Shown piece by piece: positions 13,652 to 61,882 of a stretch of 64,000 nt of DNA. The translations under genes were made by a program, and so were the position numbers. Each line of letters begins with the position of its first letter. The first letter of the stretch is position 1. Under the pieces are notes generated by a model, which was given only the letters and a program-made list of their open reading frames with translations, did no database searches and was not told the DNA's origin. The stretch comes from Streptomyces sp. NRRL F-2664 (lineage in GTDB: Bacteria > Actinomycetota > Actinomycetes > Streptomycetales > Streptomycetaceae), in the NCBI RefSeq assembly GCF_000719345.1, contig NZ_JOFX01000032.1, positions 1 to 64,000 of the forward strand. The letters are read 5' to 3'.

Positions 13652-13673
13652 GCCGCCATCCTGACCCACGACC

Positions 13674-14195
13674 TTGACCAAAGAGATAGGGGCCCCCGCA
13701 GTCGTCGGCGGCTGGGCCGCCGTGGAGTCCCTCCTCGTCCACGCCGACGACCCGAAGGGCGATGCAGAGCGGTCCGGCAAGGCCATCGCCGCCGACCGGA
13801 TGGCCGCCATCATCGCCTGCTCCTGGCCCCGCGCCGGCTCACCACCCTGGCCCACCGCCACAACCCGAGCGAGCCCGACGACCTCTTCCGGGCGGTTGCC
13901 ACCTCCACCACGAACAGGGAAGCCGCCCGCCTGGTCGCCGACGCTCTCGAAGCCACCGGCGCAGAAGCCCTCACGCTGACCAAGCCCACCGGCTACAGCG
14001 ATCAGGCCGCGGCGCATGGTCGCGCTCCTCGCCAACCCCCGATCTCAGCTCAACGAGGTCACCAAGGCGTTCCGCCTCGCCATGCGCCGCCTCTACCGGA
14101 CCCGCAACATCATCCTCCACGGCGGAGCCACCCACGGCGTCGCGCTCGAAGCCTCCCTGCGCACCGCCGACCCACTCCTCGGTTCGGGTGGCGGC
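13674..14195 (+). pseudogene. Decayed HEPN-like hypothetical gene, two frameshifts
   Basis: One protein can be followed through three frames: WAAVESLLVHADDPKGDAER near 13710, LTTLAHRHNPSEPDDLF onward in a second frame from about 13840, and LNEVTKAFRLAMRRLYRTRN with ILHGG in the first frame again from about 14055. The helical repeats and the RxxILHGG ending resemble the ApeA-like HEPN fold (RNIILHGG at the active-site-like end). The N-terminus is missing. The family call is tentative, but the two frameshifts show the gene is dead. It points towards the convergent gene at 14214. Confidence 0.5.
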
Positions 14196-25553: not shown

Positions 25554-26543
25554 ATGCTTGACCTGCTCGGACTCGACACGGCGGCCGAATCGGTCTACCG
25601 CGGAATCCTGGACGGGCCGCGGGACGTACCCGATCTGTGCGCCCGGCTCGGACTGTCCGAGGAGGAGGTCCGCGATGCTCTCGACCGGCTCAGCGCGATG
25701 GCCCTGGTGCGCCCGTCGACGGAGGATTCGGGGCGGATGCATGCGGTCAGTCCGCACGTCGGCATGGAAATTCTGCTCGCCCGCCAGCAGGCCGAACTCG
25801 CCCACCATCAGCAGCGGCTGGAGGAGAGCCGGGCCGCTGCCGCGCAGCTGATCCTCGAGTACGACGGGCGGAGCGACGGTACGGCCGGGGTGCGCTATTT
25901 CGACGGGATCGATTCCATACGCGACCACCTGGCCGTGTTGCGCAGCAAGGTGACCGAGGAGTTGCTCACCTTTGCCCCGGGCGGTCCGCAGACCTTGACC
26001 AACATGAATGCCTCGCGCCCGTTGAACCAGCAGTTGCTGGAACGGGGGGTGCAGATGCGTACGGTCTACCTGGATTCCATTCGCAGCTGCCCGGACACCA
26101 TGGAGTATGCCCACTGGCTCTCCGAGCAGGGTTGCCAGGTGCGTACGGTGCCCTCGCTGCCGAACCGGGTGATCATTTACGACCGTCGGGCGGCGGTGAT
26201 AGCGGCCGACACGGGCAACACGGCGGCCGGGGCGGTGGAGCTGACCTCGCAGGGGATGGTGGCCACGCTGCACGTGCTGTTCGAGAGCGTGTGGCAGTCG
26301 GCCGAACCGTTGGACGCGTGCAGCCGCCCGGTGCCCGGCGCCCTCAACCGGCAGCAGGCCGAGGCCCTGCGGCTGCTGGCGCAGGGCTACACCGACGAGG
26401 CCATCGGCACCCGGCTCGGTGTCTCGCCGCGCACCGCGCGCCGGATCGCTTCCGGCTTGATGGACGCCCTCGACGCTGCGAGCCGTTTCCAGGCCGGCGT
26501 GCACGCGGTGCAGCGCGGCTATCTGCCCACCGCCCCCGACTGA
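25554..26543 (+). CDS. TrmB/LuxR-type transcriptional regulator
   Basis: 329 residues. The N-terminal winged helix (MLDLLGLDTAAESVYRGILD, LCARLGLSEEEVRDALDRLS) resembles TrmB, a middle domain of about 150 residues has a PLD-like look (RVIIYDRRAAVIAA), and the C-terminal 60 residues are a LuxR-type HTH (LNRQQAEALRLLAQGYTDEA, IGTRLGVSPRTARRIASGLM). This architecture is common in Streptomyces natural-product clusters. The ATG at 25554 has GGAG upstream; an earlier start would add 22 residues. It is convergent with the LOG-family gene and may be a second regulator of the cluster. Confidence 0.85.
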   Translation: MLDLLGLDTAAESVYRGILDGPRDVPDLCARLGLSEEEVRDALDRLSAMALVRPSTEDSGRMHAVSPHVGMEILLARQQAELAHHQQRLEESRAAAAQLILEYDGRSDGTAGVRYFDGIDSIRDHLAVLRSKVTEELLTFAPGGPQTLTNMNASRPLNQQLLERGVQMRTVYLDSIRSCPDTMEYAHWLSEQGCQVRTVPSLPNRVIIYDRRAAVIAADTGNTAAGAVELTSQGMVATLHVLFESVWQSAEPLDACSRPVPGALNRQQAEALRLLAQGYTDEAIGTRLGVSPRTARRIASGLMDALDAASRFQAGVHAVQRGYLPTAPD

Positions 26544-26578: not shown

Positions 26579-27163
26579 TCACACCGGGGCCAGAACGGCC
26601 GCCCCCGGTGCGGCCAGCAGGTCCAGGGCTTCGTCGGCGGTCTCGGCGCTGCGGACGACACGGCGCTCCTGTGCGGTGAGGAAGCCCTCGGTCACCAGGT
26701 GGTCGAGCATGGCGAGCATCGGGGTGTAGAAGCCGCGGTGGTTGACGACCACGACGGGCTTCTCCATCAGGGAGAGCTGGTTCCAGGTGGCCACCTCCAT
26801 CAGCTCGTCCATGGTGCCGATCCCTCCGGGCAGCACGGCGAAGCCGGTGGAGAGCCGGTACATGAGCGCCTTGCGCTGGTGCATCGAGCGCACCACGAAC
26901 GTCTCGCCGCGGGCCCGGTCCGCGCGCTCCCGCTCGTAGAGGCTGCGGGGGAGCACTCCGGTGACGGTGCCGCCGCCGGCCAGCACCCCGTCCGCGACGG
27001 CTCCCATCACGCCCACTCCCCCGGCGCCGTAGACCAGGTCCCGGCCGCGGCGGGCGAGTTCGTAGCCGAAGGCGCGGGCGAAGGCGACGTGGTCCTCGCT
27101 GGCTCCGGGGCGGGCGCCGCAGAACACCGCGATCCGTTCGCTCGTGGTGACGGGCGTCTGCAT
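26579..27163 (-). CDS. LOG-family protein (TIGR00730 Rossmann fold)
   Basis: 194 residues with the family motif PGGIGTMDELMEVATW and the nucleotide-binding start RIAVFCGARPGASEDHVAFA. Known members are cytokinin-type nucleoside 5'-monophosphate phosphoribohydrolases that release a free base from a nucleotide; several natural-product clusters use them. RMxxRK-type residues are present as RSMHQRKALMYRLSTGFAVL. GGGGAG lies upstream of the ATG at 27163. It is the last gene of the operon that starts at the 27-codon gene. Its role in a peptide pathway is not obvious; it may act on an adenylate or nucleoside-like appendage, or be a passenger. Confidence 0.9.
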   Translation of the reverse strand: MQTPVTTSERIAVFCGARPGASEDHVAFARAFGYELARRGRDLVYGAGGVGVMGAVADGVLAGGGTVTGVLPRSLYERERADRARGETFVVRSMHQRKALMYRLSTGFAVLPGGIGTMDELMEVATWNQLSLMEKPVVVVNHRGFYTPMLAMLDHLVTEGFLTAQERRVVRSAETADEALDLLAAPGAAVLAPV

Positions 27164-27219
27164 GGGCTCTTGCTCCCCGGTTGTCCTCGTACGTTCGACC
27201 GGACCGTCTCCCGGCCGGT

Positions 27220-28518
27220 TCACAGCACGGTCCCGTCGGCCACCCGCAGGGCGGTGCGCAGCAGCACCCGGGCTCCGGCCACCAGGTCCTCCGGTCGGCT
27301 GTCCTCCTCGGGTACGTGGCTGATTCCGCCGAGGCTCGGGACGAAGATCATTGCGATCGGGGCGAGGTCGGCCACCACTTGCGCGTCGTGGCCCGCGCCG
27401 CTGGGCAGGACCTCGTGGGTCAGGTCCAGGGCGTCCGCGCTCTGTTCGATCGCCGTGCGCAGGCGCAGGTCTGCGGAGACCGGGTCCGAGCGGGTCTCGG
27501 CCACCACTTCGATCTCGGTGCCGGTGGACAGCTCGATGGAGCGGAGCATCCGGCGCAGGACCTGTTCGGCGCCGGTCATCCGCCATACGTCGGTGTCGCG
27601 GAGGTCCACCGTCAGGCGGACGGCGCCGGCGATGGTGTTCGGCGTGTTGGGGTGGGGGTCGAGGCGGCCGACGGTGGCCACCCGGCACAGTCGGCGCTCC
27701 GTTGCCAGGTTCTCCGTCGCCAGGACGACCCGGGCCGCGGCGGCCATCGCGTCGCGCCGGCCCGCCATGGGGCTGGTTCCCGAGTGCCCGGCGCTGCCGC
27801 GTACCTCCAGGGTGAGTACGGTCCGGCCGGTGATGGCTTCCACCACGCCGATGCGGTTGCCGCTGCGTTCCAGTACCGGTCCCTGCTCCACGTGGAGTTC
27901 CAGGTAGGCGGCGATGGAACCGGCCGGCCAGCAGGCACTGCCCAGCGCGTCCAGGTCTCCGCCGGCCCGGCGCAGCGCTTCGCGCAGCGGCCTGTTGTGG
28001 TGGTCGGCGGGTTCCTGGGGCAGCGCGTCGAGCCGTCCTGCGACGGCCATGGATCCCCAGAACGGTTGGGGGAACAGGGCTCCCTCCTCGTTGGCGAAGG
28101 CCACCGCGACCGGCTCGCAGGCGGTGTCCAGTCCCGAATCGGCGAGGGTCTGCACCACTTCCAGGGCGGCGAGCACCCCGTATGCGCCGTCCAGCCGTCC
28201 GCCGTTGACCACGGTGTCCAGGTGTGAGCCCATCATGAGCACCTGCCGTTCGCCGGCCTCGCCGCCGACGGAGCCGGGGCAGGCGCGTACCACGATGTTC
28301 CCGGCGGCGTCGACCGAGGGGGCCAGTCCGGCCGTCCGGGCCTGGTCCATCAGGTAGGTGCGCCCCTGGCGGTCGGCGGCGCTGAAGCCCTCCCGGGTGA
28401 TGCCTCCCGTCATCGGGTCCGCGCCGATGCGTGCCAGCTCGGCGACGCGCCGCAGCAGACGGTCGGGGTCGATGTCCAGGGTGCGCTGTTCGCCCCGCTC
28501 CAGTACCTGGTCGCTCAT
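27220..28518 (-). CDS. M20-family amidohydrolase (N-carbamoyl amino acid hydrolase type)
   Basis: 432 residues of the hydantoinase/carbamoylase subfamily. Metal-site residues are seen in GSHLDTVVNGGRLDGAYG (His, Asp), FANEEGALF (Glu pair), ELHVEQGPVLE (His) and SGAGHDAQ (His), with the lid domain motif RGSAGHSGTSPM. Such enzymes cleave N-carbamoyl amino acids, allantoate or ureidoglycine-type amides. It follows the M13 peptidase by one base. Beside a carbamoyltransferase gene in the partner operon it could trim a carbamoyl or amide group, or release an amino acid during maturation; this is inference. Confidence 0.9.
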   Translation of the reverse strand: MSDQVLERGEQRTLDIDPDRLLRRVAELARIGADPMTGGITREGFSAADRQGRTYLMDQARTAGLAPSVDAAGNIVVRACPGSVGGEAGERQVLMMGSHLDTVVNGGRLDGAYGVLAALEVVQTLADSGLDTACEPVAVAFANEEGALFPQPFWGSMAVAGRLDALPQEPADHHNRPLREALRRAGGDLDALGSACWPAGSIAAYLELHVEQGPVLERSGNRIGVVEAITGRTVLTLEVRGSAGHSGTSPMAGRRDAMAAAARVVLATENLATERRLCRVATVGRLDPHPNTPNTIAGAVRLTVDLRDTDVWRMTGAEQVLRRMLRSIELSTGTEIEVVAETRSDPVSADLRLRTAIEQSADALDLTHEVLPSGAGHDAQVVADLAPIAMIFVPSLGGISHVPEEDSRPEDLVAGARVLLRTALRVADGTVL

Positions 28519-28519
28519 C

Positions 28520-30532
28520 TCACTCGCTCCTCGGCGCCATCAGCGTGAACCGGTTGGCCGGCCGGATGTACATGCGGTCGCCCTCGCCGACCCCGAACGC
28601 TTCGTAGAAGGCGGGGATGTGGCCGAGGACGCCGTTGCAGCGGAATCGGGGTGGTGCGTGGGTGTCGTTCTCCAGGCGCTCGCGCATCCGCTCCGGGGTG
28701 CGCTTGGCGCGCCACATCGACGCCCACAGCACGAAGAACCGGCGCAGTTCGCGGCGGCGGGCGGCTCCGGTCACCGCGCGGGAGGCCAGGTGTTCGTCGA
28801 ACGCGGCCTGTGCCACGGTCAGTCCGGCGATGTCGGCGATGTTCTCGGCCAGTGTGCGGGCGCCGCTGACCCGGCGGCCGCCGGGTCCTTCGGGCGTGTA
28901 GCGGTCGTACTGGGCCGTGAGCGGGGCGGTACGGCGGTCGAATTCGGCGCGGTCGGCGCCGGTGCGCCAGGCGCGGACGAAGGCGTGTGCCATTTCGTGG
29001 CAGACGATCGCGCCGAGCACCGCGTGGTCGCGGGCCGGGTCCGCCCCGGCGGTGAACACCGGGGGCCGCAGGAGTCCGGCCGGGACCACGACCTGGTTGA
29101 GTCCGTGCCGGTAGTAGGCGGTGACGGCCTGTGGCAGGACGCGCCATTCGGCCGGGTCGGGCGGGCCGGCGAGCCGGCTGAGCTGGTGGGCGAACAGTCG
29201 GGCCCGGCCGCGTTTGACGTTGCCGATCAGGTCGGCGGGGTCGGTGACCAGGGGGCCGGGCTCGGGCGGGCGGCCGGGACGGGGGTGGTCCGGGTGGTGG
29301 GTGGCGGGGCCGCCGAGGTCGAAGCGCATGCCGGCCAGCAGTGCCAGGTTGGCCGCCCGGCCTGCGGGGCTTGGCCAGTCGGCCGCGGCCAGCCGGTCGC
29401 GGAAGGCGGTGGCCAGCCGGTCCACCAGGGCGGTGGCGGCGTGGAGGGTGTGCGGGTCCAGGTGGGTGCGCAGGTAGCGGGCGCCGACCAGGTCGCCTGC
29501 GGCGGTCTGGACGAAGGCGGTGGCCCGCAGCCGGCGCGGCCAGGGCCGGCGGACGCCGGTCAGGTCCCGCCAGTAGAAGCTGAAGTGCTCGCCGAACATC
29601 CGGCGTGGCCCGAACGGGGCCATGTCGTGGAGGTAGCGCCAGGCCAGCCAGAGCCGCAGGGAGTCCAGCTCGGTGGTGGCCCACCAGTGGTCGAGGGCGT
29701 CCAGGAAGCCGGCGGGCCGGATTCGCACGCGGGCGGCGCCGGGTACCGGGCCGAGTTCCTGCAGCCACTGCGTCCAGGGGAACCCGCGGTCCCGGTCGGC
29801 CAGCTCGGCGGCGGTGCCGGGCACCGGGGGGGCGTCGGGGGCACCGGCACCCGTGCTGTCCGGCGGGACGTGCCCGCCGGACAGCAGGGTTTCCGCCCGC
29901 AGGACGCGGGCCGCGGCCGATTCGGCGTCGGGCAGCCCGGCGAGGGAGAGCATCGCCGCCACGTGGACGGCGTACCGCTCGCGCAGGCGCCCGCTGCGCG
30001 CCTCGCGGTACAGCGAGGCGGAGGGCAGGCCGAGGCCGGACGGGGTGAGGTCGAGTACGTACTGGCGTGCGTCGATGGTGACGGCGGGGGCGGCGGCGCC
30101 GGTCACGCCCTGCGCCTGCAGCCGTCCCAGCACCCGGGCGAGTGCCCGTCGGTCGGGCGCGGTGCGGATCGCGGCGAGGTCGCCGGCGAGGGCGCCGATG
30201 CCGAGCTCCTCGATCCGCGGTTCGTCCATGAAGCTCGTGTACAGGTCGGTGATGCGGCGCCCGTCGGGGTCGGTGCCGGGGGTCCGTACCAGGGCGGCGA
30301 CCTCCTCCTGCACCTGTTCGGCGAGGAGGGACAGCATGGTGGCCTCGGCCCGGTGCTCGGGCAGGACGAACGCTTCGGCCCAGCGGCCCGATGCGTACTG
30401 GTGGAAGTCGTCCTGCGGGCGGACCGAGGGGTCGAGCAGTTCGGGCTCGGTGCCGTGGGTCTCGGCAGCGGGGTCGAGGATGTCGGCGGGCGGGCGGGCG
30501 GGGGCCGGGACGGCGGTGGGGGCGGTGGTCAT
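28520..30532 (-). CDS. M13-like (neprilysin-type) metallopeptidase
   Basis: 670 residues, normal for M13. Zinc motif CHEMAHAF (His512, Glu513, His516) and third-ligand motif ENIADIAG (Glu563, Asp567) are present, with the substrate motif TAYYRHGLNQVVVPAGLLRP standing in for the usual NAYYxPxxNxIxxPAG. The C-terminal RCNGVLGHIPAFYEAFGV replaces the RVNGPLxNxxEF pattern. No signal peptide or membrane anchor, so it is cytoplasmic, as often in bacteria. M13 enzymes cut short peptides. Its ATG overlaps the stop of the JmjC gene (ATGA). It probably trims or removes a leader, or protects against the product. Confidence 0.92.
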   Translation of the reverse strand: MTTAPTAVPAPARPPADILDPAAETHGTEPELLDPSVRPQDDFHQYASGRWAEAFVLPEHRAEATMLSLLAEQVQEEVAALVRTPGTDPDGRRITDLYTSFMDEPRIEELGIGALAGDLAAIRTAPDRRALARVLGRLQAQGVTGAAAPAVTIDARQYVLDLTPSGLGLPSASLYREARSGRLRERYAVHVAAMLSLAGLPDAESAAARVLRAETLLSGGHVPPDSTGAGAPDAPPVPGTAAELADRDRGFPWTQWLQELGPVPGAARVRIRPAGFLDALDHWWATTELDSLRLWLAWRYLHDMAPFGPRRMFGEHFSFYWRDLTGVRRPWPRRLRATAFVQTAAGDLVGARYLRTHLDPHTLHAATALVDRLATAFRDRLAAADWPSPAGRAANLALLAGMRFDLGGPATHHPDHPRPGRPPEPGPLVTDPADLIGNVKRGRARLFAHQLSRLAGPPDPAEWRVLPQAVTAYYRHGLNQVVVPAGLLRPPVFTAGADPARDHAVLGAIVCHEMAHAFVRAWRTGADRAEFDRRTAPLTAQYDRYTPEGPGGRRVSGARTLAENIADIAGLTVAQAAFDEHLASRAVTGAARRRELRRFFVLWASMWRAKRTPERMRERLENDTHAPPRFRCNGVLGHIPAFYEAFGVGEGDRMYIRPANRFTLMAPRSE

Positions 30533-31746
30533 CGGTTCACGCTTCCCGCTGCGACGGGGGCCGGTTCCAGCAGGCCGAGCCGGGTCAGGGACTCGGCGGC
30601 GCGTACGGAGCGGGGGGCGGGGGCGCCCTGGAGCAGTTCCCCGGCCCGGACCGAGCCGCCCGCCTCCAGCAGGCGCAGGGTGGCGGCCACCGCGTCGGGG
30701 ACGGCAAGGGTGTGGCCGTTGACGGTCAGCTGCGTTCGGCCGCCCTCGCTCGGGCCGATCGCCACCGGGATCCTGCTGCGCTGCAGCGGGTCGTGCGGGG
30801 TGAGACCGCACAGGGAGGCCAGCCGTTCGAACTCACGGGGCGGGAAGGCGCCGGCCCGCTCCTGGCCTGCTGTGGTGAGGCGGGCCGCTTCTGCGGCGGG
30901 GGCCACCTGGGCCAGCCGTTCGGCGAGCAGGGCAAGCTTGGCGGCGAGCGCGGTGGCGGCCGGGCCGCCGTCGGTGCCCGTGCCGCCGAGGTGGGGGACG
31001 GTGGCGAACTCCTCGCCGGCGGTCAGTGCGTCCACCGTCTCGCGCAGGAGGTCGCGCCAGCGGCGGGGGGTGACGGTGACCGATACGTGCAGGGAGACCA
31101 GGTCCCCCGCGGCGGCGGCGTGCGGGGTGCCGTACGGCAGGTAGAGCACGTCGCCGGGGTGCAGGGTGGTTTCCAGGGCGGGCTCGCCGAGGGTGCCGTC
31201 GGGGTAGGTGGCGGGGTCGCTGCGGCGTTCGCCGGCCGGCTCCCAGATCCGCCAGCGCTTGGTGCCCTCCGTCTGCACGACGAACACGTCCAGCGGGTCG
31301 TGGTGGGGGGCGTAGCCGTCGTGGCCGGCGGGGGTGAGGAAGGCGACCGCCTCGGCCGGGGCGGCGAAGGCCTGGGTGAACGCCTGGACCAGGCGGCGGG
31401 CGGAGGGCAGGAAGTGGTGGAGGTAGTTCCAGGTGATGGTGCCGCCGGAGCGGAACAACTCGTAGACCTGCTCGGGCACGACGGCCTCGGTGAGTGCCGC
31501 GCCGTGCTCGGTGGCCACCCTGGTGTAGGCCTTGCCGGGGATGCCCTGGCCGCCGCGGGCCACGCGGATGTAGGCGGGGTGCACGGTCTCCATGGCGATG
31601 AGGTCGTCGAGCCGGCCGACCGACACCAGCTCCCGGGCGCGGGCGGCGTCCAGCGCCCCGCGGCGCAGCAGCGGGCGCTCGCCGAAGTGCCGTGAGAAGA
31701 ACTCGTCGGTGTCTCCGACCAGTTCCTCGAAGGTCCAGTCCGTCAC
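30529..31746 (-). CDS. JmjC/cupin-type Fe(II)/2-oxoglutarate oxygenase A
   Basis: 405 residues of the ribosomal-oxygenase-like JmjC (cupin_4) family, which hydroxylate amino-acid side chains in peptides. Iron ligands are His148 and Asp150 in APHHDPLDVF and His209 in GTPHAAAA; VVQTEGTKRWRIW carries the basic residue expected for 2-oxoglutarate. The C-terminal third is a winged-helix-like dimer/recognition region (LTVNGHTLAVPDAVAATLRL). GTG start with AGGAG 10 bases upstream. It directly follows the 27-codon gene with a hairpin between, so it is a strong candidate modifier of that peptide. A paralogue lies at 32710-33891. Confidence 0.92.
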   Translation of the reverse strand: MTDWTFEELVGDTDEFFSRHFGERPLLRRGALDAARARELVSVGRLDDLIAMETVHPAYIRVARGGQGIPGKAYTRVATEHGAALTEAVVPEQVYELFRSGGTITWNYLHHFLPSARRLVQAFTQAFAAPAEAVAFLTPAGHDGYAPHHDPLDVFVVQTEGTKRWRIWEPAGERRSDPATYPDGTLGEPALETTLHPGDVLYLPYGTPHAAAAGDLVSLHVSVTVTPRRWRDLLRETVDALTAGEEFATVPHLGGTGTDGGPAATALAAKLALLAERLAQVAPAAEAARLTTAGQERAGAFPPREFERLASLCGLTPHDPLQRSRIPVAIGPSEGGRTQLTVNGHTLAVPDAVAATLRLLEAGGSVRAGELLQGAPAPRSVRAAESLTRLGLLEPAPVAAGSVNR

Positions 31747-31794
31747 GATCCCGTCTCCTGTCCGCGTCCCTGCGTGCCTGCGGCCGTGCGGCCA

Positions 31795-31818
31795 AAGGGG
31801 CGGCCGGAGCCGCCCCTT
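31795..31818 (-). terminator. Intercistronic hairpin after the 27-codon gene
   Basis: Perfect 10-bp stem AAGGGGCGGC/GCCGCCCCTT with a CGGA tetraloop, 17 bases beyond the stop of the 27-codon gene and 49 bases before the oxygenase A start. Such hairpins between a RiPP precursor gene and its modification genes typically give partial termination or stabilise the short precursor mRNA. Confidence 0.75.
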
Positions 31819-31834
31819 GTGCCGCGACCGGCTA

Positions 31835-31918
31835 TTACTGGATGTTCACGTGGTACGCGGTGGCCAGCAGCTCGGCGGAGGTCTCGATGAACTCGATGTC
31901 GTCGTAGGTGTTCTCCAT
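31835..31918 (-). CDS. Candidate 27-residue precursor peptide
   Basis: A 27-codon gene: ATG at 31918 with GGGAG 10 bases upstream (AAAAAGGGAGTTGATTGTC), ending in TAA. The N-terminal half MENTYDDIEF is acidic, as in recognition leaders; the end is LATAYHVNIQ. It contains no cysteine, serine only once, and no tryptophan; candidate modifiable residues near the end are Tyr22, His23, Asn25 and Gln27. It has its own promoter, is bracketed by a terminator upstream and an intercistronic hairpin downstream, and heads an operon of oxygenase, peptidase and amidohydrolase genes. No known RiPP family is recognised. A regulatory leader peptide is the main alternative. Confidence 0.7.
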   Translation of the reverse strand: MENTYDDIEFIETSAELLATAYHVNIQ

Positions 31919-31968
31919 GACAATCAACTCCCTTTTTCTGTGGCCGGGTTGTTCCCGGCGTTGATGAA

Positions 31969-31998
31969 ATGTTGTCCCACGGGCGGGGTCGCGGTCAA
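31969..31998 (-). promoter_or_regulatory. Predicted promoter of the 27-codon gene
   Basis: Minus strand -35 TTGACC (31998-31993), 18-base spacer, -10 CAACAT (31974-31969). Start of transcription is expected near 31962, giving a leader of about 45 bases. GTTGAAC boxes end 14 bases upstream of the -35, an activator position. Confidence 0.6.
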
Positions 31999-32012
31999 CG
32001 AATGCCGATGGT

Positions 32013-32051
32013 GTTCAACCTGTTCAACCGATGCCGTGTGCGCACTTGAAC
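32013..32051 (-). promoter_or_regulatory. GTTGAAC boxes, probable StrR-like activator site
   Basis: Minus strand reads GTTCAAGTG (32051-32043), 12 bases, CGGTTGAAC (32030-32022), then directly AGGTTGAAC (32021-32013). The first two form an imperfect version of the StrR-type palindrome (12 instead of 11 bases between arms); the last two are direct repeats with 9-bp period. Position just upstream of the predicted promoter supports activation. Confidence 0.6.
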
Positions 32052-32101
32052 GGAAATCCCGGAAGAAGGTTCGGAAGAGAGCTGGGCGGAAACACGAAAA
32101 A

Positions 32102-32139
32102 GCCGTGCCTCGCTGCCGGGAAGGGCAGTGAGGCACGGC
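32102..32139 (-). terminator. Rho-independent terminator of the S9-peptidase operon
   Basis: Stem of 16 bp with one G-U type mismatch (GCCGTGCCTC-GCTGCC at 32102-32117 against 32124-32139) and 6-base loop, followed on the minus strand by TTTTTC. It lies 30 bases after the DinB-like gene's stop and closes the leftward operon that begins at 37909, so the 27-codon gene is transcribed from its own promoter. Confidence 0.9.
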
Positions 32140-32168
32140 GTGAAAGGGGTTTGGCAGGTGCCGGTGAT

Positions 32169-32675
32169 TCAGACTCCGGTGGTGCCGTCGATTCCCTCGC
32201 GGAGGAAATCGGCGTGTCCGTTGTGCCGGGCGTATTCGTGGATCATGTGGAGCATCACCCAGCGGAGCGAGACGTCGAGGCCGCGGCGACGCTCGTGGAC
32301 GACGAGTTCCAGGGAGCCGGCCTCCTTCTCGATGCGCCGGGCGTGTTCGACCTCGGCCTGCCAGGCGGCGAATGCGGCGGGCACGTTCGCGTCGTCGGCC
32401 TCGTAGGCCGTCTGGAAGTCGAAGTCTTCGGACCACACCAGCGGAATGTCCTGCCCGTCGACCACCCTGCGGAACCAGGACCGTTCCACTTCGGCCATGT
32501 GCCGGACCAGGCCCAGGAGGGTGAGGGTGGAGGGTGGCATGGAGCGGGTGCGGAGCTGGTCGTCGGACAGGCCGGCGCATTTCAGTTCGAGGGTCTGCCG
32601 GTGGAATTCCAGGTGGGCGCGGAGCATTTCGCGCTCGTCGGCGATGGTGGGCGGAGAAGGTCGTTCGATGGTCAT
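32169..32675 (-). CDS. DinB-like (DUF664) protein
   Basis: 168-residue four-helix-bundle protein. The metal-binding-type histidines are in LVRHMAEVERSWF and MLHMIHEYARHNGHADFLRE, the pattern of DUF664/DinB proteins, some of which are thiol-dependent (mycothiol) transferases or isomerases. It is 34 bases downstream of oxygenase B and is the last gene before the terminator. Its role in the pathway is unknown; a thiol-dependent step or detoxification is possible. Family is well supported, function is not. Confidence 0.88.
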   Translation of the reverse strand: MTIERPSPPTIADEREMLRAHLEFHRQTLELKCAGLSDDQLRTRSMPPSTLTLLGLVRHMAEVERSWFRRVVDGQDIPLVWSEDFDFQTAYEADDANVPAAFAAWQAEVEHARRIEKEAGSLELVVHERRRGLDVSLRWVMLHMIHEYARHNGHADFLREGIDGTTGV

Positions 32676-32709
32676 CGCCGGATCCTCTCATCCGGAGGGC
32701 GGGTCCGGT

Positions 32710-33891
32710 TCAGGCTGCTACCTCCAGCAGGCCGATCCTGGCCAGCCCTTGCGCGGTGCGGGTGGCCCGTTCGGCGGGGACTCCGGGGAACACGTTGGCG
32801 GCGGACATCTGTTCGCCCACTGCGAGGCGCGCGAGGCTGGCGGCCACCGGCTCGGGCACGGCGATCCGGTGCCCGTTGACGGTGAGTTGGACCCGTCCGC
32901 GGTCGGGAGCGTCGAATGCGACGGTGGCGGCGGTGCGGCGCATCGGCGTGTCGGGTTCCAGGGCGTCGAGGCGGGCGGTGGTGCGGAAGGTGTTCCCGGC
33001 GGAGTTGCCGGGCATCCGGCGGCCGAGCTCGGCCAGCCGGTCCAGCTCCGGTCCGGGGGCGAGGGTGGCTAGGCGCTCGGCAACGGCTCGCAGCTTCTCG
33101 GTGAACAGCGTCTCGGTGGCGAGCGTGCGGTCCGCGCCGATGAACGGGAACTCGTTGAACTCCGGGTCCCGGACGAGCTCCTCGAAGGTCTGCCCCAGCA
33201 GGTCCTTCCACATCCGCGGGCGGATCATGATGGAGAGGTGGACCGAGGCCAGCTCCTCGGCGGCGGCCGCGTGCGGGGTGTCGTACGGCAGGTAGAGGAC
33301 GTCGCCGGGCTCCAGCAGGACGTCGATGACCGGCTCGCCGAGCTGCTCGGCGGTGTACGAGGCCGCCTCACCGCGGCGGACCTCGGCCGGGTTCCACAGC
33401 CGCCACCGCTTGGTGCCCTCGGTCTGCACGATGAACAGGTCGACGGGGTCGTGGTGCGGGGAGAAGCCCTGCTTGCCGGCCGGGGTCAGGAAGGCCACGC
33501 AGTCGGTCTTGGCGCCGAAGCGGTCGCTGATGACGCGGGTGAAGTCGCGCAGCGAGGTGTCGAGGTGGTTCAGGGAGCTCCACACGATGGTGGCGCCGGC
33601 CCGGAACAGCTCGTAGACCTTCTCCGGGACGATGGCGTCGGTGAGGTCGGTGCCCTGGACGGTGATGGTCCGGGTGAACCCCTGGTCGGGGACGCCGGCG
33701 CCCTTGAGGTTGGCCCTCAGGTAGGGCGGACGGATGATGTCGAGCTGGACCAGCTCGTCGAGCCGACGCAGCGAGAGGATGTCCTGGGGGGCCTTCAGCG
33801 CGCCCTTGCGCAGCAGCGGCTTCTTGTTGAAGTACTCGGCGAAGAATTCCTTCTCGTCACCGACCAGGTCGGCGAAGGTGTAGTGCGTCAT
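32710..33891 (-). CDS. JmjC/cupin-type Fe(II)/2-oxoglutarate oxygenase B
   Basis: 393 residues, paralogue of oxygenase A throughout: both begin MTxxTFxxLVGD and share PEKVYELFRAGATIVW. Iron ligands are His146 and Asp148 in SPHHDPVDLF and His207 in DTPHAAAA, with IVQTEGTKRWRLW. The C-terminal winged-helix-like part is also shared (LTVNGHRIAVPEPVAASLAR). Presence of two diverged copies, one in each operon, suggests two sites or two successive oxidations on the same substrate, or a heterodimer. It follows the carbamoyltransferase with a 48-base gap. Confidence 0.92.
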   Translation of the reverse strand: MTHYTFADLVGDEKEFFAEYFNKKPLLRKGALKAPQDILSLRRLDELVQLDIIRPPYLRANLKGAGVPDQGFTRTITVQGTDLTDAIVPEKVYELFRAGATIVWSSLNHLDTSLRDFTRVISDRFGAKTDCVAFLTPAGKQGFSPHHDPVDLFIVQTEGTKRWRLWNPAEVRRGEAASYTAEQLGEPVIDVLLEPGDVLYLPYDTPHAAAAEELASVHLSIMIRPRMWKDLLGQTFEELVRDPEFNEFPFIGADRTLATETLFTEKLRAVAERLATLAPGPELDRLAELGRRMPGNSAGNTFRTTARLDALEPDTPMRRTAATVAFDAPDRGRVQLTVNGHRIAVPEPVAASLARLAVGEQMSAANVFPGVPAERATRTAQGLARIGLLEVAA

Positions 33892-33939
33892 GCTGGTAGT
33901 CCGTTCCAGGTGTCCGGGATCTTCTCCGGAAGGCGGGTG

Positions 33940-35934
33940 TCAGTGGCGCAGGGCGGGGGCGTCGCCGAAGACGGTGCCCGGGCCGTGGTCGCGGCGGAAC
34001 TGTTCGAGGCTCTGCGCGAAGGCCGGGTCCTTGGAGGCGACCCGTTCGGCGAGCAGCCGGATCCGGTTGGGGGTCCAGGTGTCCGGGTCGGCCAGGAGCT
34101 GCGGGGTGCCGGTGAGGAGCAGCAGGCCGGCTTCGGTGTGGCCGCGGTCGAGCCAGGACTGCCAGATCGCGTCGCGGTCGGCCTCCTGTCCGGCGAAGAA
34201 TGCGGTGGCCCGGGGGTGCGGGCCGGTCGGCGGGGCGGCGTCTGCGGTGCCGTACTCGTGGAGGAGCACGCGGCGGCCGGCCAGGTAGACGGTGCGGATG
34301 CCCTTGCGGACGGCGAAGTTGAGCGCTTGTGCGGCGGTGTCGGCAATCGGCTCCCCCTTGTCGTTGAGGGAGGTGTTGCACACGATCGGAACCCCGGTGG
34401 CGTCCCGGAACGCCTCGATGGCCCGGTGCAGCAGCGGGTTGTCGGCGGCGGCCAGGGTCTGGTGGCGGGCGGTGCCGTCGAGGTGGAGGACGGCCGGTAT
34501 CCGGTCTCGGACTTCGGGGCGGACCCGGGCGGCCTCCAGCATGTAGGGCGAGGGGCGGTCCTGCTCGAACCAGTCGCCGGCGTGCTCGGCGAGCACGATG
34601 GGGGCGACCGGACGCCACCACTGACGCTGCTTGTACTCGTTGAGGAGGTCCTTGACCTTCCCCGAGCGGGGGTCTCCGAGCAGGCTTCGGTGGCCGAGGG
34701 CGCGGGGTCCCATCTCGGCGGCGCCGTCCGCCCAGACCACCACCGAGTCGGTGAGGTCCTCGGCGAACCGCTCCGGTGTGAAGTCCGCGACCTCTTCGAT
34801 GAACGGGGCGAACACGGCGAGCGCCTCGTCGATCTCGTCGGCGCGCAGGTCGTTGCCCTGGTAGGCGGTGGCGATCGTGAGGTCGGCGGTGTCGAGGGCG
34901 CCGGTCGTCCACAGCCCGAGCAGGCCCAGGCCCAGCGCTACGCCGGAGTCGTTGGCGCAGGGCGGGGTCAGCAGGCCCCGGAACCGGTACCGCTCCAGCA
35001 TCCGGGTGTTGGCCTGCACGTTGAGGGCGAAGCCGCCGCTGACGGAGAGGTAGGCGTCCTCGGGGCGCACGCCTCCCAGCGCGGCGAGTGTGTCGACGGT
35101 GCGAGCCGTGATCAGCTCGCAGCACTCCTGGACCACCTTCATCACGGCGCTGTGCAGGTTCTCCTCGGCGGTGAACCGCACGTCGGGGGCGGTGCCGGCC
35201 AGCTGCCGTTCCGCTTCGGCGAGGACTCGCCGGACCAGGCCGAACGCGGCGGCCCAGGGCTGCACGTGCCCGCCGAAGAAGGTGAGGTCGCCGAGTTCGG
35301 CGGCCGCGTCGAGGTCGACTGCGGTGTCGCAGGCGGAGGCGAGTGCCATCAGGGTGCCCGGCTCCTTGCCCAGCACCCGGTCGGCGGCGTGGTAGAGCGG
35401 CGCGGGCGACTCGATCGGGGCGAAGGTGATGTCGCCGCGGACCGATACGCATCCGGCGTAGTAGGCGGGGGGCAGTTCCCGCTCCAGGACCAGGTCGGGG
35501 GCGGCGTCCACCGCGAGCCCGATGATCACCGACTCCTTGAACAGCCGGGTGTCCGTCATCAGTCCGCTGAACAGGTGGCCCAGGCTGTGCAGCGGCAGCC
35601 CCTCGGCTCCCCGGGGCAGCTGGAGCGGCTGGTGGCCGGGCAGGCCGGGGGTGCCCCAGCTGACGGTGACGTCGGCGGGGGTGAGGCCCTCGCCGGCCAG
35701 CAGATGGGCGAGGAAGGCCTCGGACCGCTCGGCCGTGTAGAGCGGCCAGGAGTGGTGCTTCTGTCCGCTGATCCGTTCCAGCTCCCAGTGCCGGACCAGT
35801 TCGACCCGGTCGGCGGTGCGCCGCCACAGGGAGAGGTTGTGGTCGTGGCGCGGGGAGATGACGGCCCGTTCGCCGGGCGGGGTGAGATAGGTGGAGAGGA
35901 TGTACTCGGCGGGTTGGTCAGTGTGCGGGGGCAC
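33940..35934 (-). CDS. NodU/CmcH-type carbamoyltransferase
   Basis: 664 residues. The C-terminal YrdC-like/carbamoyltransferase motifs are clear: MGPRALGHRSLLGDPRSGKV, QWWRPVAPIVLAEHAGDWF and VCNTSLNDKGEPIADT, and the Kae1-like half has YLSVSGGFALNVQANTRML. The first 60 residues diverge from the usual FNHDSSA start, having RHDHNLSLWRRTADRVELVR instead. The family makes carbamoyl-adenylate from carbamoyl phosphate and ATP and carbamoylates a hydroxyl. Here the acceptor could be a hydroxyl made by one of the JmjC oxygenases (inference). The ATG overlaps the end of the S9 peptidase gene by 17 bases. Confidence 0.92.
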   Translation of the reverse strand: MPPHTDQPAEYILSTYLTPPGERAVISPRHDHNLSLWRRTADRVELVRHWELERISGQKHHSWPLYTAERSEAFLAHLLAGEGLTPADVTVSWGTPGLPGHQPLQLPRGAEGLPLHSLGHLFSGLMTDTRLFKESVIIGLAVDAAPDLVLERELPPAYYAGCVSVRGDITFAPIESPAPLYHAADRVLGKEPGTLMALASACDTAVDLDAAAELGDLTFFGGHVQPWAAAFGLVRRVLAEAERQLAGTAPDVRFTAEENLHSAVMKVVQECCELITARTVDTLAALGGVRPEDAYLSVSGGFALNVQANTRMLERYRFRGLLTPPCANDSGVALGLGLLGLWTTGALDTADLTIATAYQGNDLRADEIDEALAVFAPFIEEVADFTPERFAEDLTDSVVVWADGAAEMGPRALGHRSLLGDPRSGKVKDLLNEYKQRQWWRPVAPIVLAEHAGDWFEQDRPSPYMLEAARVRPEVRDRIPAVLHLDGTARHQTLAAADNPLLHRAIEAFRDATGVPIVCNTSLNDKGEPIADTAAQALNFAVRKGIRTVYLAGRRVLLHEYGTADAAPPTGPHPRATAFFAGQEADRDAIWQSWLDRGHTEAGLLLLTGTPQLLADPDTWTPNRIRLLAERVASKDPAFAQSLEQFRRDHGPGTVFGDAPALRH

Positions 35935-37909
35935 AGTCGTCCTCCTCGGGCATCTGGCGGGACCACCAGTCGAGAATCGCCTCGTAGCGGGCGATGCGGT
36001 GGCTGGGCAGACCGGTGCGGGACATGTCGTGCCCCTCGCCGGGGAACAGCAGCAGCTCGACGGGGACCCCGCGCATCTTCAGCGCGACGAACATCCGCTG
36101 TGCCTGCTCCATGGGGGTGTGCCGGTCCTCCTCGGACTGGATGAACATCATCGGGATGTCGATCCGGTCGGCGTAGCTGATCGGGCTGAGCTCCGCCCAC
36201 CGGGCGGTGTCGGCGCCGTACAGGGCGATGGAGTTGTTGACCCCGTCGTCGGCCGAGCCGAAGTGGCTGTCGATGGCGTAGCAGCCGCGCTCGCCCATCG
36301 CTGCCCGGAACCGCTTGCCGTGGTGGGCGGCCAGCCAGGCCGACATGTAGCCGCCGAACGAGCCGCCCTGGACGCCGACGCGGTCGGCGTCCAGGGAGGT
36401 GTCGCGCAGCGCGTGGTCGAGCAGGGCCAGCAGGTCGGGGGCGGTCCGACGGGCCAGGTCGTCGGCGGCCCAGCGGCCGTGCGCCTGCCCGTAGCCGGAG
36501 GTGCCGCGCGGGTTGCCGAGGACCACCGCGTAGCCGGCGCGGGCGTAGACCTGCGCCTCCTCGAAGGAGGCGGGCCCGTTGAGGGTGTAGCCCCACTGGG
36601 TGTACGGGCCGCCCTTGATCTGGAGCAGTACCGGGTGCGGTCCGGGGCCCTCGGGGCGGACCAGCCAGCCCTGGAGGGGGTATCCGTCCTCGGCGTGCGC
36701 GGTGAACTCCTCGATCGGTCGCAGCCGTGCGCGGGCGCGCAGTTCGGCGCCGAAGGAGGTCAGTTCGCGTTCGGTGCCGTCGCGCAGCAGGGTGAGGTCG
36801 CCGGCGCTTTCGGCCGAGGACAGTACGGCGGCCACGGTGGTGGTGCCGTCCGGGGCCTCGGCCACCGCGAACCCGTTGACCTGGCGGAGGCCGGTGACGA
36901 CCGGGCGGGGTTCGCCGCCGTCGTAGGGCACGAGGACCAGGTGGACCTCGCCGTGCCAGTCGTTGGGGAAGTACACCCCGTCCCGGCCGGTCCGGATCAT
37001 CAGGGAGGAGAAGCTCAGGTGGTGGGTCTCGGGGTCGGTGAGCCGGACCGGGTCGGCGGAGCCGTCGCTGGGGACCGACCACAGGCCGTAGCTGCTGGCG
37101 CCCCGGGCGCGGCCGTCGGGGGTGAGGGTCTCGGCGGCGAAGTGGACGTTCCTGCCGTCCGGGGAGAACTGCGGGCAGCTCATTTCCAGGCCGCCCCGTG
37201 TGAGGGGGCGCTGGCCGGTACCGTCCGGGGCGCATATCCACACGTCACGGCGCAGGTCGTCGGCGTGCCCGGGGTGGCGGCCGGAGACGAAGGTGAGCTG
37301 GGAGCCGTCCGGGCTCCAGGCCACCTCGTCGTGGTCGAAGGGGCCCGAGGTGAGCTGGGCGGCGGCCGGGGCGGCGGCGAAGGCGCCCGTGGCGAACGGG
37401 GCGGTGACGAAGACGTGGCGGGGCCGGTCGAAGGTGAAGCCGAGGCCGTCGGCCATGTAGCGCAGCGCGGTGATCCGGCGCGGCCGCTCCTTGCCCGGCG
37501 GTACGCCGGGCAGGTACCGGCCCGGCTCGGGCACCCGGGCGGTGAAGGCGAGCCGGGTGCCGTCCGGGCTCCACGCCGGCTGACCGGCGCCGAGCGGCAG
37601 GTCGGTCACGGGGAACGGGTCGCCGCCGTCCATGGGGAGCAGGTGGATCTGGGCAGGACCACCTGCGGGCAGCGGGCGCAGGAAGGCGAGCCAGCGTCCG
37701 TCCGGGGAGAAGGCCGGGGCGCTGTCGGAGGGGCCCCGGGTGAGCCGACGGGCCGGCGTGGACCCGTCGGTCGCGGCCACCCACAGCTCGGTCGCGTTGG
37801 CATCGGCGGCCGCGTCGGGCGCCGTCACGCTGACGGCAGCCAGACGTCCGTCGCCGGACAGGGTGGGCCGTCCCAGAATTCGCAGCAGATCGATATCCGT
37901 AGGGAGCAT
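35918..37909 (-). CDS. S9-family (prolyl-oligopeptidase-type) serine peptidase
   Basis: 663 residues: an N-terminal beta-propeller with repeated SPDG motifs (FSPDGRWLAF, WSPDGTRLAF, WSPDGSQLTF, FSPDGRNVHF) and a C-terminal alpha/beta hydrolase domain with nucleophile Ser517 in GGSFGGYM, Asp595 (QSEEDRHTP) and His627 (GEGHDMSR). No signal peptide, so cytoplasmic. The propeller restricts entry to short peptides. The predicted -10 box lies so close to the ATG that the mRNA would be leaderless. It heads the operon with the carbamoyltransferase, oxygenase B and DinB-like genes and is a candidate leader peptidase for the small peptide. Confidence 0.93.
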   Translation of the reverse strand: MLPTDIDLLRILGRPTLSGDGRLAAVSVTAPDAAADANATELWVAATDGSTPARRLTRGPSDSAPAFSPDGRWLAFLRPLPAGGPAQIHLLPMDGGDPFPVTDLPLGAGQPAWSPDGTRLAFTARVPEPGRYLPGVPPGKERPRRITALRYMADGLGFTFDRPRHVFVTAPFATGAFAAAPAAAQLTSGPFDHDEVAWSPDGSQLTFVSGRHPGHADDLRRDVWICAPDGTGQRPLTRGGLEMSCPQFSPDGRNVHFAAETLTPDGRARGASSYGLWSVPSDGSADPVRLTDPETHHLSFSSLMIRTGRDGVYFPNDWHGEVHLVLVPYDGGEPRPVVTGLRQVNGFAVAEAPDGTTTVAAVLSSAESAGDLTLLRDGTERELTSFGAELRARARLRPIEEFTAHAEDGYPLQGWLVRPEGPGPHPVLLQIKGGPYTQWGYTLNGPASFEEAQVYARAGYAVVLGNPRGTSGYGQAHGRWAADDLARRTAPDLLALLDHALRDTSLDADRVGVQGGSFGGYMSAWLAAHHGKRFRAAMGERGCYAIDSHFGSADDGVNNSIALYGADTARWAELSPISYADRIDIPMMFIQSEEDRHTPMEQAQRMFVALKMRGVPVELLLFPGEGHDMSRTGLPSHRIARYEAILDWWSRQMPEEDDCAPAH

Positions 37910-37916
37910 GGACGGA

Positions 37917-37972
37917 AAATTAGGGGTGGAATCCGAATATCCTCAACCGCGTTCAACTGCGCCGTTCAACTG
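37917..37972 (-). promoter_or_regulatory. Predicted promoter of the S9 operon with CAGTTGAAC repeats
   Basis: Minus strand -35 TTGAGG (37946-37941), 18-base spacer, -10 TAATTT (37922-37917), so transcription should begin near 37910, at the start codon. Immediately upstream are two direct repeats of CAGTTGAAC (37972-37964 and 37959-37951), and the -35 itself lies in a third related box (CGGTTGAGG). Confidence 0.6.
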
Positions 37973-38030
37973 CTCCGCACACGTGCGGCCCAACTGCGTT
38001 GTGTCGACGGCTTCTTTGGCCTTTGGGGGT

Positions 38031-38059
38031 GTTCAACCGCGGTAATGCGGCGGTTGAAC
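38031..38059 (+). promoter_or_regulatory. Perfect StrR-type operator palindrome
   Basis: GTTCAACCGC (38031-38040), 9 bases, GCGGTTGAAC (38050-38059). Written as GTTCAACCG-N11-CGGTTGAAC it matches the arm order and N11 spacing of the published StrR consensus GTTCGActG-N11-CagTcGAAC. It lies 8 bases upstream of the predicted MFS promoter and 120 bases upstream of the S9 peptidase gene. Confidence 0.75.
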
Positions 38060-38066
38060 GGGGAAG

Positions 38067-38095
38067 TTGAGCAGGCCACGTATGTCCGGCATCAT
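38067..38095 (+). promoter_or_regulatory. Predicted promoter of the MFS exporter gene
   Basis: -35 TTGAGC (38067-38072), 17-base spacer, -10 CATCAT (38090-38095), ending 43 bases before the MFS start codon. Confidence 0.5.
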
Positions 38096-38138
38096 CGTGC
38101 GCTCCTGCCCGTCAACCGCAGATGGTGAGGTCTCCGCA

Positions 38139-39506
38139 ATGACCCGAGCAGAAGGCCTCCCCGAGGGACCGCCGAAGGGGCCGCAGAAGGGGCCGTTGAA
38201 GGGGCCGTTGGCGAACCCGGATTTCCGGCGGCTGTGGACCGCCGGGTTCGTCTCGGAGACCGGCGACTGGATCTTCATGATCGCCATGCCGGTGTACGTC
38301 TACCAGCTCACCGGTTCGGTCACGGCCACCGCGACCAACTTCATCCTGGAGCTGCTGCCCGGTCTGCTGCTGTCGCCGGTGGCCGGGGTGCTCGCGGACC
38401 GCTGGGACCGGCGGCGGCTGATGATCGGCGTGAGCCTGCTCCAGGTGCTGGTACTGCTGCCGCTGCTCGCCGTCGACGGGCCCGGCCAGCTGTACCTGGT
38501 CAACCTGGTCACCTGCGCGCAGGCGGCGCTCGCCACGGTCTTCCAGCCCGCCAAGTACGCGCTGCTGCCTTCGGTGGTCGCTCCGGAGGATGTCGCCGCC
38601 GCCAACGGCCTGGCCAGCCTCAACGGCAACCTGGCGCGGCTGCTGGGTGCCTCCTGCGGCGGGTTCGTGGTGGCGGGGCTGGGGCTGCCGGGAGTCCTGG
38701 TCATCGACGCGGCCTCCTTCTTGGTGGCGGTGGCGCTGCTGGCCCGCCCGTTCGGGGTGCCGCGGCCGGCTGCGGTGCGGGAGCCGGTGTGGCAGGCGTG
38801 GGTGGCCGGGCTCCGGGAGATCAGGAACCGGCGCGGGCTGCGGCTGATGGTGCTGCCGGTGGGGCTGATCGGCCTGGCGCAGGGCCTGTTCGCCGTGCTG
38901 TTCGTCGTTTTCGTGACCGAACGGCTGGGCGGCGGCGAGGGCGAAACCGGTCTGCTGCGCGGGGTCCAGGCGATCGGCGGTATCGCGGGCGGGGCGTTGA
39001 TCGGCACGCTGGCCCGTCGCACCGATCCCGGCCGGCTGCTGGGCTGGGCGCTGCTGGTGTTCTCCGCCATGACCGCCTTCACCTGGAACAGCGCGTACGT
39101 GACCACTGCGATCTGGTTCCAGGCGGCGCTGTTCGCGGTGCTGGGTGCGCCGGGGATCGGGGTGTTCGCGGGCCGGATGGCCATCGTGCAGCTGCACACC
39201 TCGGATGCCACCCGCGGGCGGGTCCTGGCCAGTTTCCAGAGCGTGTTCGACGGGTTCACGGCCCTGGGCATGGCGCTGGCCGGCGCCCTGGCCGGGCTGC
39301 TCGGGCTGCCGTTCGCACTCGACGTCCAGGCCGCGCTGCTGGGCGTGGCGGGGGTGTTGGCGCTGTGGCACTTCCGGCCCGGGGCACGGGCGGCGGAGGC
39401 GGCCGAGCCGCACGCCGGTGCGGCCACGGGCACTGAGGCGGCCGGCACCGCCGGCGCACCGGACCGGACGCCGTCGCCGGCGTCCTCCTCCCCCGCTTCT
39501 CCCTGA
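38139..39506 (+). CDS. MFS exporter (EntS/MFS_3 type)
   Basis: 455 residues with about 12 membrane helices and the MFS motif A-like GVLADRWDRRRLMIG between helices 2 and 3. The arrangement resembles EntS-type exporters of siderophores and antibiotics. The cytoplasmic N-terminus has a tetrapeptide-like repeat (PPKGPQKGPLKGPL) and the C-terminal tail is Ala/Thr/Pro-rich. The ATG at 38139 has GAGG 8 bases upstream. It diverges from the S9 operon and its promoter adjoins a StrR-type palindrome, so it is probably the product exporter and self-resistance protein of this cluster. Confidence 0.92.
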   Translation: MTRAEGLPEGPPKGPQKGPLKGPLANPDFRRLWTAGFVSETGDWIFMIAMPVYVYQLTGSVTATATNFILELLPGLLLSPVAGVLADRWDRRRLMIGVSLLQVLVLLPLLAVDGPGQLYLVNLVTCAQAALATVFQPAKYALLPSVVAPEDVAAANGLASLNGNLARLLGASCGGFVVAGLGLPGVLVIDAASFLVAVALLARPFGVPRPAAVREPVWQAWVAGLREIRNRRGLRLMVLPVGLIGLAQGLFAVLFVVFVTERLGGGEGETGLLRGVQAIGGIAGGALIGTLARRTDPGRLLGWALLVFSAMTAFTWNSAYVTTAIWFQAALFAVLGAPGIGVFAGRMAIVQLHTSDATRGRVLASFQSVFDGFTALGMALAGALAGLLGLPFALDVQAALLGVAGVLALWHFRPGARAAEAAEPHAGAATGTEAAGTAGAPDRTPSPASSSPASP

Positions 39507-61842: not shown

Positions 61843-61882
61843 GAGCCTGCCTGCCTCTCCACCGCCGGGGCGGTATTGGTAA

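Follow-up and report, generated by a model that had tools for sequence, protein, structure and literature searches.

The stretch of 64,000 nucleotides from Streptomyces sp. NRRL F-2664 analysed here (contig NZ_JOFX01000032.1, positions 1 to 64,000; called the window in its full length) contains a gene cluster which probably makes a ribosomally synthesized and post-translationally modified peptide (RiPP), with a 27-residue peptide, MENTYDDIEFIETSAELLATAYHVNIQ, as the precursor. The 27-codon gene for this peptide (31835..31918, minus strand) lies among genes for two JmjC oxygenases (JmjA and JmjB), hydrolases of the M13, M20 and S9 types, a LOG-type protein, a carbamoyltransferase of the NodU/CmcH type (CarbT), a DinB-like protein and an MFS exporter. 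Comparison of sequences and analysis of codon changes identify the small open reading frame (ORF) as a conserved coding gene tied to the JmjC enzymes.

The gene possesses a ribosome-binding site (AGGGAG) and an ATG start codon; an alternative in-frame TTG three codons upstream is possible. Since ORFs of this size with both a ribosome-binding site and an ATG occur frequently by chance in the window (29 on the plus and 27 on the minus strand in a scan for 20–60 codons), the case for the 27-codon gene rests on its conservation. Alignment of four loci with the gene content of the window (type 1, see below) showed strong conservation mainly from the ATG to the stop codon of the ORF, followed by a hairpin. 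A DNA pattern for DIEFIET matched 12 times in 8 of 392 Streptomyces genomes, always at the JmjC locus, and these were the same eight genomes which carry the JmjA/JmjB pair; a control with the reversed pattern gave 0 matches among those listed. Intact precursor copies, 17 in number, were read in 12 strains, i.e., the window's strain, S. yangpuensis fd2-tb and CM253, S. lavendulae BP39, NBC_00503, G172, G117, G378, G209, G083, G012 and G563; two copies in G061 without an in-frame start codon were excluded from the precursor counts. The preliminary description of this DNA had stated that its proposal would fall if the small ORF were not conserved beside homologous enzymes in other strains; conservation was found, and it rules out a chance ORF. 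The gene tables of three annotated plasmid records, which are known to be incomplete, contain nothing at the precursor positions.

Two precursor copies each are present in the loci of G209, G083 and G012, and three in that of G563; the copies within a locus encode the same peptide. When the 10 distinct DNA sequences were compared in their last 22 codons, the proportions of synonymous and nonsynonymous differences (pS and pN) were 0.23 and 0.09, respectively (ratio 0.38), and the two copies of G209 differ by four synonymous changes, with no amino acid change. Invariant in all 17 precursors are a Thr, the first Tyr and the C-terminal Asn-Ile-Gln. A His occurs in five of them, including that of the window, and is replaced by Tyr in the other 12; thus, judged from these peptides, a His target of the NO66 kind is not conserved. 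No Trp is present in any of the 17 precursors, and no lysine in those of type 1.

JmjA (30529..31746, minus strand) and JmjB (32710..33891, minus strand; 47% identity to JmjA) both belong to the JmjC_2 family (PF08007) and contain HxD and TPH motifs. An iron triad (H148, D150, H209) is invariant in an alignment of 48 JmjC sequences, which consisted of the window's two and 46 of 125 database matches to JmjB. JmjC_2 enzymes couple the oxidative decarboxylation of 2-oxoglutarate to hydroxylation. The two proteins are the only evident oxidative enzymes of the cluster; they score under the cut-off for Cupin_8 (PF13621), and a search of the strain's own genome for Cupin_8 gave no match at E 0.001. 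A structure model of JmjA (pLDDT 89.6) had NO66 and MINA53 as its nearest overall structural matches and consists, as these do, of a JmjC core and a C-terminal winged helix; JmjB appears to be built likewise by sequence only, its C-terminal domain being 45% identical to that of JmjA. Among the 50 structural matches listed for the C-terminal domain of JmjA, 20 were ribosomal oxygenases of the JmjC type; of the remaining 30, 25 were, by title or known function, RiPP enzymes or leader-binding proteins, including PqqD, TigE, MibB, NisB, TbtB, MccB, TbiB1, heterocyclases, ThcOx, McbBCD, a sactipeptide enzyme and the RiPP recognition element (RRE) of PbtF. According to the model, the C-terminal domain of JmjA is thus of RRE-like fold; searches of three C-terminal pieces with the Pfam RRE models gave nothing convincing. 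If a ribosomal peptide has its own oxygenases, a domain of this predicted fold is what would be expected of them.

Of the 392 Streptomyces genomes, 148 contained a JmjC relative at E <= 1e-10 when searched with JmjA, and eight, including the window's genome, contained a close pair of JmjA and JmjB (both E below 1e-100) among the matches listed. Type-1 loci contain genes for a LuxR-type regulator, LOG, M20, M13, JmjA, the precursor, DinB, JmjB, CarbT, S9 and MFS; they were recognized in the window, fd2-tb, G172, G117 and G378 by tblastn and in CM253 by annotation. Type-2 loci (G061, G209, G083, G012) contain genes for LuxR, LOG, M20, S9, M13, another MFS protein, JmjA, JmjB, a precursor, a TPR protein and again a precursor, with no match to CarbT or DinB in the 18.5 kb searched. 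The variant locus of G563 has divergent LOG and M20 genes besides its three precursors; that of NBC_00503 has genes for YcaO, GNAT, DUF885 and TPR proteins upstream and for a ScbR-type regulator downstream. Neither variant gave a match to CarbT, DinB or LuxR. Relatives of M13, S9, M20 and LOG occurred in all ten loci of the same kind besides the window, namely eight loci and L059 and L068. A CarbT ortholog (74–82%) was present in only three of the eight neighbour genomes tested (G172, G117, G378), so carbamoylation is probably accessory, as far as gene content can tell; G061, G209, G083 and G012 showed no CarbT match at E 1e-20, and the CarbT relatives of G563 were partial, with 38–43% only. 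YcaO was considered as a core enzyme and rejected: its gene occurs near two relatives of the cluster, upstream in NBC_00503 and downstream in a further locus (G290), and is missing from the window-type cluster.

Beyond these genomes, scoring of the best 7998 candidates from a database of 5.8 billion gave 125 proteins with a match to JmjB (E <= 1e-60), and the 120 JmjB matches listed included 20 putative pairs on one contig. Among 70 genomes from the genus to which G563 belongs, one had the JmjA/JmjB pair; a second draw at genus level, which overlapped the first, and a draw at class level gave no new locus, and a contig search with a single-protein query gave two loci. Five plasmid records carry the locus, four of them seen to be linear, and in G172 and G012 it is part of contigs 7.5 and 9.0 million bases long, respectively. 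A plasmid location is not claimed for the window, the flanks of which match plasmid records only in segments that each cover no more than 13% of the query, among the matches listed. Positions 61299–63833 of the window resemble plasmid NZ_CP108713.1 along plasmid genes annotated as a GTP-binding protein and ribosomal proteins S14, L31, L28 and S18.

In the precursor, the acidic leader would lie around (D/E)DIEFIET, and the core, at the C-terminal end, around AT(S/A)Y(Y/H)xNIQ. The RRE-like domains could bind the leader as an extra beta strand and so bring the core into the active site with Fe(II) and 2-oxoglutarate, where JmjA and JmjB would hydroxylate its side chains; the invariant Asn or a neighbouring aromatic residue is a first guess for the target. 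The M13, S9 and M20 hydrolases would cut off the leader and shorten the core, so that a very small product results. M13 enzymes favour short peptides, and NodU/CmcH enzymes transfer carbamoyl groups via an adenylate; CarbT of type-1 loci could perhaps cap the new hydroxyl or the freed N-terminus. Export would be the task of the MFS protein, and the LuxR-type protein may regulate the cluster via repeats of GTTCAAC.

This heptamer was observed 16 times in the window, compared to 3.24 times expected (mean of shuffled sequences). Six sites fall into intergenic DNA, namely the 250 bases ahead of the precursor gene and the 157 bases between the S9 and MFS genes; the other ten, which are elsewhere, alone exceed 3.24, so that the background is underestimated and the excess is not confined to promoters. 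The repeats upstream of the precursor gene (n = 2, 32013..32028) and those in the divergent S9/MFS promoter region (n = 4, GTTCAAC/GTTGAAC, 37951..38059) are candidate operator sites. Of 17 precursor copies examined, a set which excluded CM253 and BP39 and included the two G061 copies, 14 had GTTCAAC or GTTGAAC in the 250 bases upstream. Between S9 and MFS, four such sites are present in the window, four in fd2-tb, one each in G172 and G378 and none in G117.

Some observations weigh against a RiPP cluster. Some close pairs of precursor genes show no synonymous excess (window and G117, pN 0.10 and pS 0.07; G117 and G378, pN 0.04 and pS 0.00), and NO66 and MINA53 share the winged-helix fold of JmjA which RREs also match. 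The short ORF could instead encode a regulatory leader peptide, the translation of which would control termination at a hairpin and thereby transcription into the JmjA-M13-M20-LOG genes. A 10-bp G+C-rich hairpin is indeed located 3' of the stop codon, ahead of JmjA (31795..31818, minus strand; z -3.15 upon folding); such a hairpin, counting that of the window, followed the ORF directly in all ten copies folded, from the 17 intact ones (z -1.13 to -4.96), and that of the second G563 copy has a U run after it. However, the hairpin of the window lacks a following T run and was not among the three terminator-like sites detected, and the short ORF contains no run of one codon type. The purely synonymous differences between the two G209 copies, the presence of two or three copies in type-2 loci and G563, and the distance of about 1 kb, with a TPR gene between, from the first G209 copy to the next oxygenase gene also speak against attenuation; moreover, the picture would be the same if a partial terminator stood behind the gene of a RiPP precursor. 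Attenuation appears very improbable to us. Even less can be said for enzymes which act on free amino acids or dipeptides, with the small ORF as an unrelated conserved gene in the locus; this is highly improbable, although the M20, LOG and carbamoyltransferase families usually comprise small-molecule enzymes. All eight genomes (of the 392) with the JmjC pair also have the peptide, the link holds across loci of differing gene order, G290 retains a related peptide with a single JmjC protein, and the JmjC proteins resemble protein hydroxylases, JmjA with a domain modelled as RRE-like.

The presence of a regulator and an exporter, the variable copy number of the precursor and the GTTCAAC sites, which could make up an autoregulated regulon, would fit a secreted pheromone, i.e., a peptide which the peptidases would process and the LuxR-type regulator would detect, rather than a scaffold for a small molecule. 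Biosynthetic clusters, however, commonly contain LuxR-type regulators as well, and the two variant loci searched gave no relative of this one; a 27-residue acidic peptide with no secretion signal evident by eye, and two oxygenases, a carbamoyltransferase and an M20 enzyme, which exceed the needs of a pheromone, make this explanation unlikely. Somewhat more weight may be given to a chemical variant of the RiPP explanation, which overlaps it: the 2-oxoglutarate enzymes would oxidise C-terminal residues, leading to ring closure and to an alkaloid-like, N-carbamoylated di- or tripeptide similar to crocagin. Crocagin arises from a precursor of 21 residues, with a core of three residues at its C-terminus, by means of an Fe/2-oxoglutarate dioxygenase, a protease and a carbamoyltransferase; the three hydrolases of the present cluster also suggest a very small product, and the C-terminal Asn-Ile-Gln is constant in 17 of 17 copies. 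The lack of Trp in all 17 precursors and of a carbamoyltransferase ortholog in the type-2 genomes leave such a product a minor possibility. A RiPP cluster with hydroxylation of core side chains is the explanation which we prefer.

The genes of the cluster are transcribed mostly from the minus strand, in the order S9, CarbT, JmjB and DinB, then, after a gap of 250 bases, precursor, JmjA, M13, M20 and LOG. The S9 peptidase (35918..37909, minus strand; PF00326) has a PD40 propeller and the nucleophile motif GGSFGG, and its gene overlaps by 17 bases with that for CarbT (33940..35934, minus strand; PF16861/PF02543, motifs HSLGH and GPRALGHRS). The DinB or mycothiol-S-transferase-fold protein (32169..32675, minus strand; PF04978) is present in type-1 loci only. 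An overlap of 4 bases connects JmjA with the M13 (neprilysin-like) metallopeptidase (28520..30532, minus strand; PF05649 and PF01431, motifs HEMAH and ENIADIAG). The M20-type amidohydrolase (27220..28518, minus strand) is of the N-carbamoyl amino acid hydrolase/allantoate amidohydrolase family (hydantoinase/carbamoylase model TIGR01879, 361.6 bits with a cut-off of 204), and the LOG-type Rossmann-fold protein (26579..27163, minus strand; TIGR00730, PF03641) contains the motif PGGIGTMDE. Divergent from S9 is the gene for the predicted MFS exporter (38067..39506, plus strand; PF05977), the exact start of which is uncertain, an ATG further in being possible. Every gene named in the preliminary description is present with an open reading frame. 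Its left boundary was the LOG gene; the gene for the LuxR-type helix-turn-helix regulator (25554..26543, plus strand; PF13384 above the cut-off, GerE weak) has a relative at the LOG end in all eight loci searched besides the window, some of them truncated at the edge of the retrieved stretch, and the cluster therefore probably extends beyond that boundary. The variant loci L059 and L068 were searched as well and gave no LuxR relative. The Pfam and NCBIfam models detected no MNIO, radical SAM or TldD domain and no LanB, LanC, LanM, lasso cyclase or YcaO in the ten cluster proteins scanned, in agreement with the earlier statement that YcaO, radical SAM and LanM proteins are missing.

Small ORFs were also found near JmjC genes outside the window-type family. 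Many ORF families obtained by clustering were overlaps with other genes or frames; those kept by eye had a strong third-position G+C, a ribosome-binding site and a JmjC neighbour. In G269 and G071, three and two tandem 18-codon genes, respectively, MDIVIIEDREVVAHHPS(L/K) (L043 7103-7359, L044 8015-8168), precede genes for a nitroreductase-family (SagB-like) protein, confirmed by Pfam in G269 and similar by eye in G071, two JmjC genes and an MFS match; these peptides, which begin with MDIVIIED, are candidates for a second JmjC RiPP family. An ORF of 48 residues with the internal repeat ISDNDPTDPV/IADNDPSDPV lies beside the JmjC gene in L016-L018 (L047 8833-8979, L048 9608-9754, L018 2633-2779) and is a candidate multi-core precursor; each of these loci has an S9 match, confirmed by Pfam for G310. 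ORFs ending in QINEA, NINEA or QISNA were found near pairs of JmjC matches in L023, L024/L049, L025/L046, L031, L063 and L064 (L045 10048-10221, L049 7956-8132, L046 10330-10470, L063 9006-9131, L064 1064-1189) and may be a further precursor family. L002 and L050 contain a candidate peptide, but no conserved partner; the ORF of L002 (8126-8293), in a metagenome-assembled actinomycete genome, encodes 55 residues with two NHV repeats ahead of a JmjC gene. A protein of 517 residues (P0099) joins an aminotransferase domain to a JmjB-like JmjC domain, as a natural fusion or an artefact of gene calling.

G290, whose JmjC protein is 42% identical, has a 29-residue ORF with DMDIELIE, followed by a transposase gene and then JmjC and MFS genes (L040 7443-13400), with no relative of M13, S9 or M20 in 18 kb; its YcaO gene is followed by a TfuA-like ORF and preceded by a separate small ORF, as judged by eye. 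G096 contains a JmjC gene (44% to JmjB) directly after genes with LANC_like and Lant_dehydr domains, and upstream of LanB a 73-residue ORF, lanthipeptide-like by eye, with DLDLDIQL in its leader and an end rich in Ser, Thr and Cys. The whole resembles a class I lanthipeptide operon (small ORF 13630-13851, LanB, LanC and then JmjC; L041 8091-13851). The JmjC protein of G096 has 313 residues and is thus without the RRE-like C-terminal domain. The DIE-F/L-IE and DLDLDIQL leaders look alike, which may point to a common mode of recognition. Altogether, 22 JmjC loci which are not of the window type (L011-L032) were inspected, and a candidate precursor was present in 11 (L011 and L012, via the longer stretches L040 and L041, L014-L018, L023-L025 and L031); none was seen in the other 11 (L013, L019-L022, L026-L030, L032), where mostly 1.5 kb per side were examined. 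Most JmjC proteins of these latter loci are 31–37% identical to JmjA, and most may be unrelated to peptides.

NO66/MINA53-type JmjC enzymes, many with an RRE-like domain, could perhaps define a broad, undescribed group of actinobacterial RiPPs, in which the DDIEFIE family would be one branch besides the other short peptides of JmjC loci and the lanthipeptide. In the DDIEFIE branch, most of the precursor would serve as scaffold, and only one or a few oxidised, sometimes carbamoylated residues would be left of it. We put this forward only tentatively, since candidates were present in 11 of the 22 other loci only and the lanthipeptide-type JmjC protein lacks the C-terminal domain. Should it be true, an enzyme family best known for hydroxylation of ribosomal proteins would be the main tailoring machinery of a RiPP group which is easily overlooked, because its candidate precursors have only 18 to 58 residues, and the winged helix of the eukaryotic NO66 and MINA53 would be related to a leader-binding domain of RiPPs. 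In that case, the cluster would also provide a concrete precursor and two enzymes for reconstitution, which bear on the relation of that winged helix to RREs, and the leader motif DIE-F/L-IE would be usable for genome mining.

No published account of the present cluster, and no description of its precursor family and enzyme set, was found in the literature searched, which covered few subscription papers, most being outside its reach. The preliminary description knew of no described RiPP class with this enzyme combination, and to that extent it stands; the novelty is smaller than it implied, since JmjC hydroxylases have already been described in RiPPs. In biphenomycin biosynthesis, BipG is a gamma-ornithine hydroxylase which acts on the precursor peptide (PMC12707348), and PbsQ likewise hydroxylates ornithine (PMC12257519). 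The bip/bpm/pbs clusters share with the present one a JmjC/cupin 2-oxoglutarate oxygenase, an MFS exporter and a peptidase, and the bip cluster also holds a TPR-annotated protein. Their key steps depend on an MNIO, a B12 radical SAM enzyme, an arginase and a TldD protease, whereas MNIO, radical SAM and TldD were missing from the ten proteins scanned here.

The crocagin (cgn) cluster (PMC10070186) resembles the present one by a very short precursor (21 residues) with a C-terminal core, an Fe/2-oxoglutarate dioxygenase, a protease and a carbamoyltransferase; its core contains Trp, in contrast to the Trp-free precursors described here. Its peptide-binding proteins CgnB and CgnE may derive from aminopeptidases according to the same source; in the present cluster, binding of the leader would more likely take place inside the JmjC proteins. 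In the std cluster of S. thermodiastaticus (PMC13174530), the NodU-like carbamoyltransferase StdF, which carries a fused peptidase domain, modifies a RiPP precursor by carbamoylation of lysine, a residue which the type-1 precursors lack. RRE-like domains fused to JmjC (PF08007) were noted in fish and algae, with the closest bacterial JmjC homologs in RiPP-like contexts, by RRE-Finder 2025 (PMC12710340), which in the parts examined names no precursor, cluster or product of the present kind. NO66 (RIOX1), MINA53 and YcfD act on ribosomal proteins; here, by contrast, the JmjC genes stand beside a gene for a small peptide and genes for peptidases.

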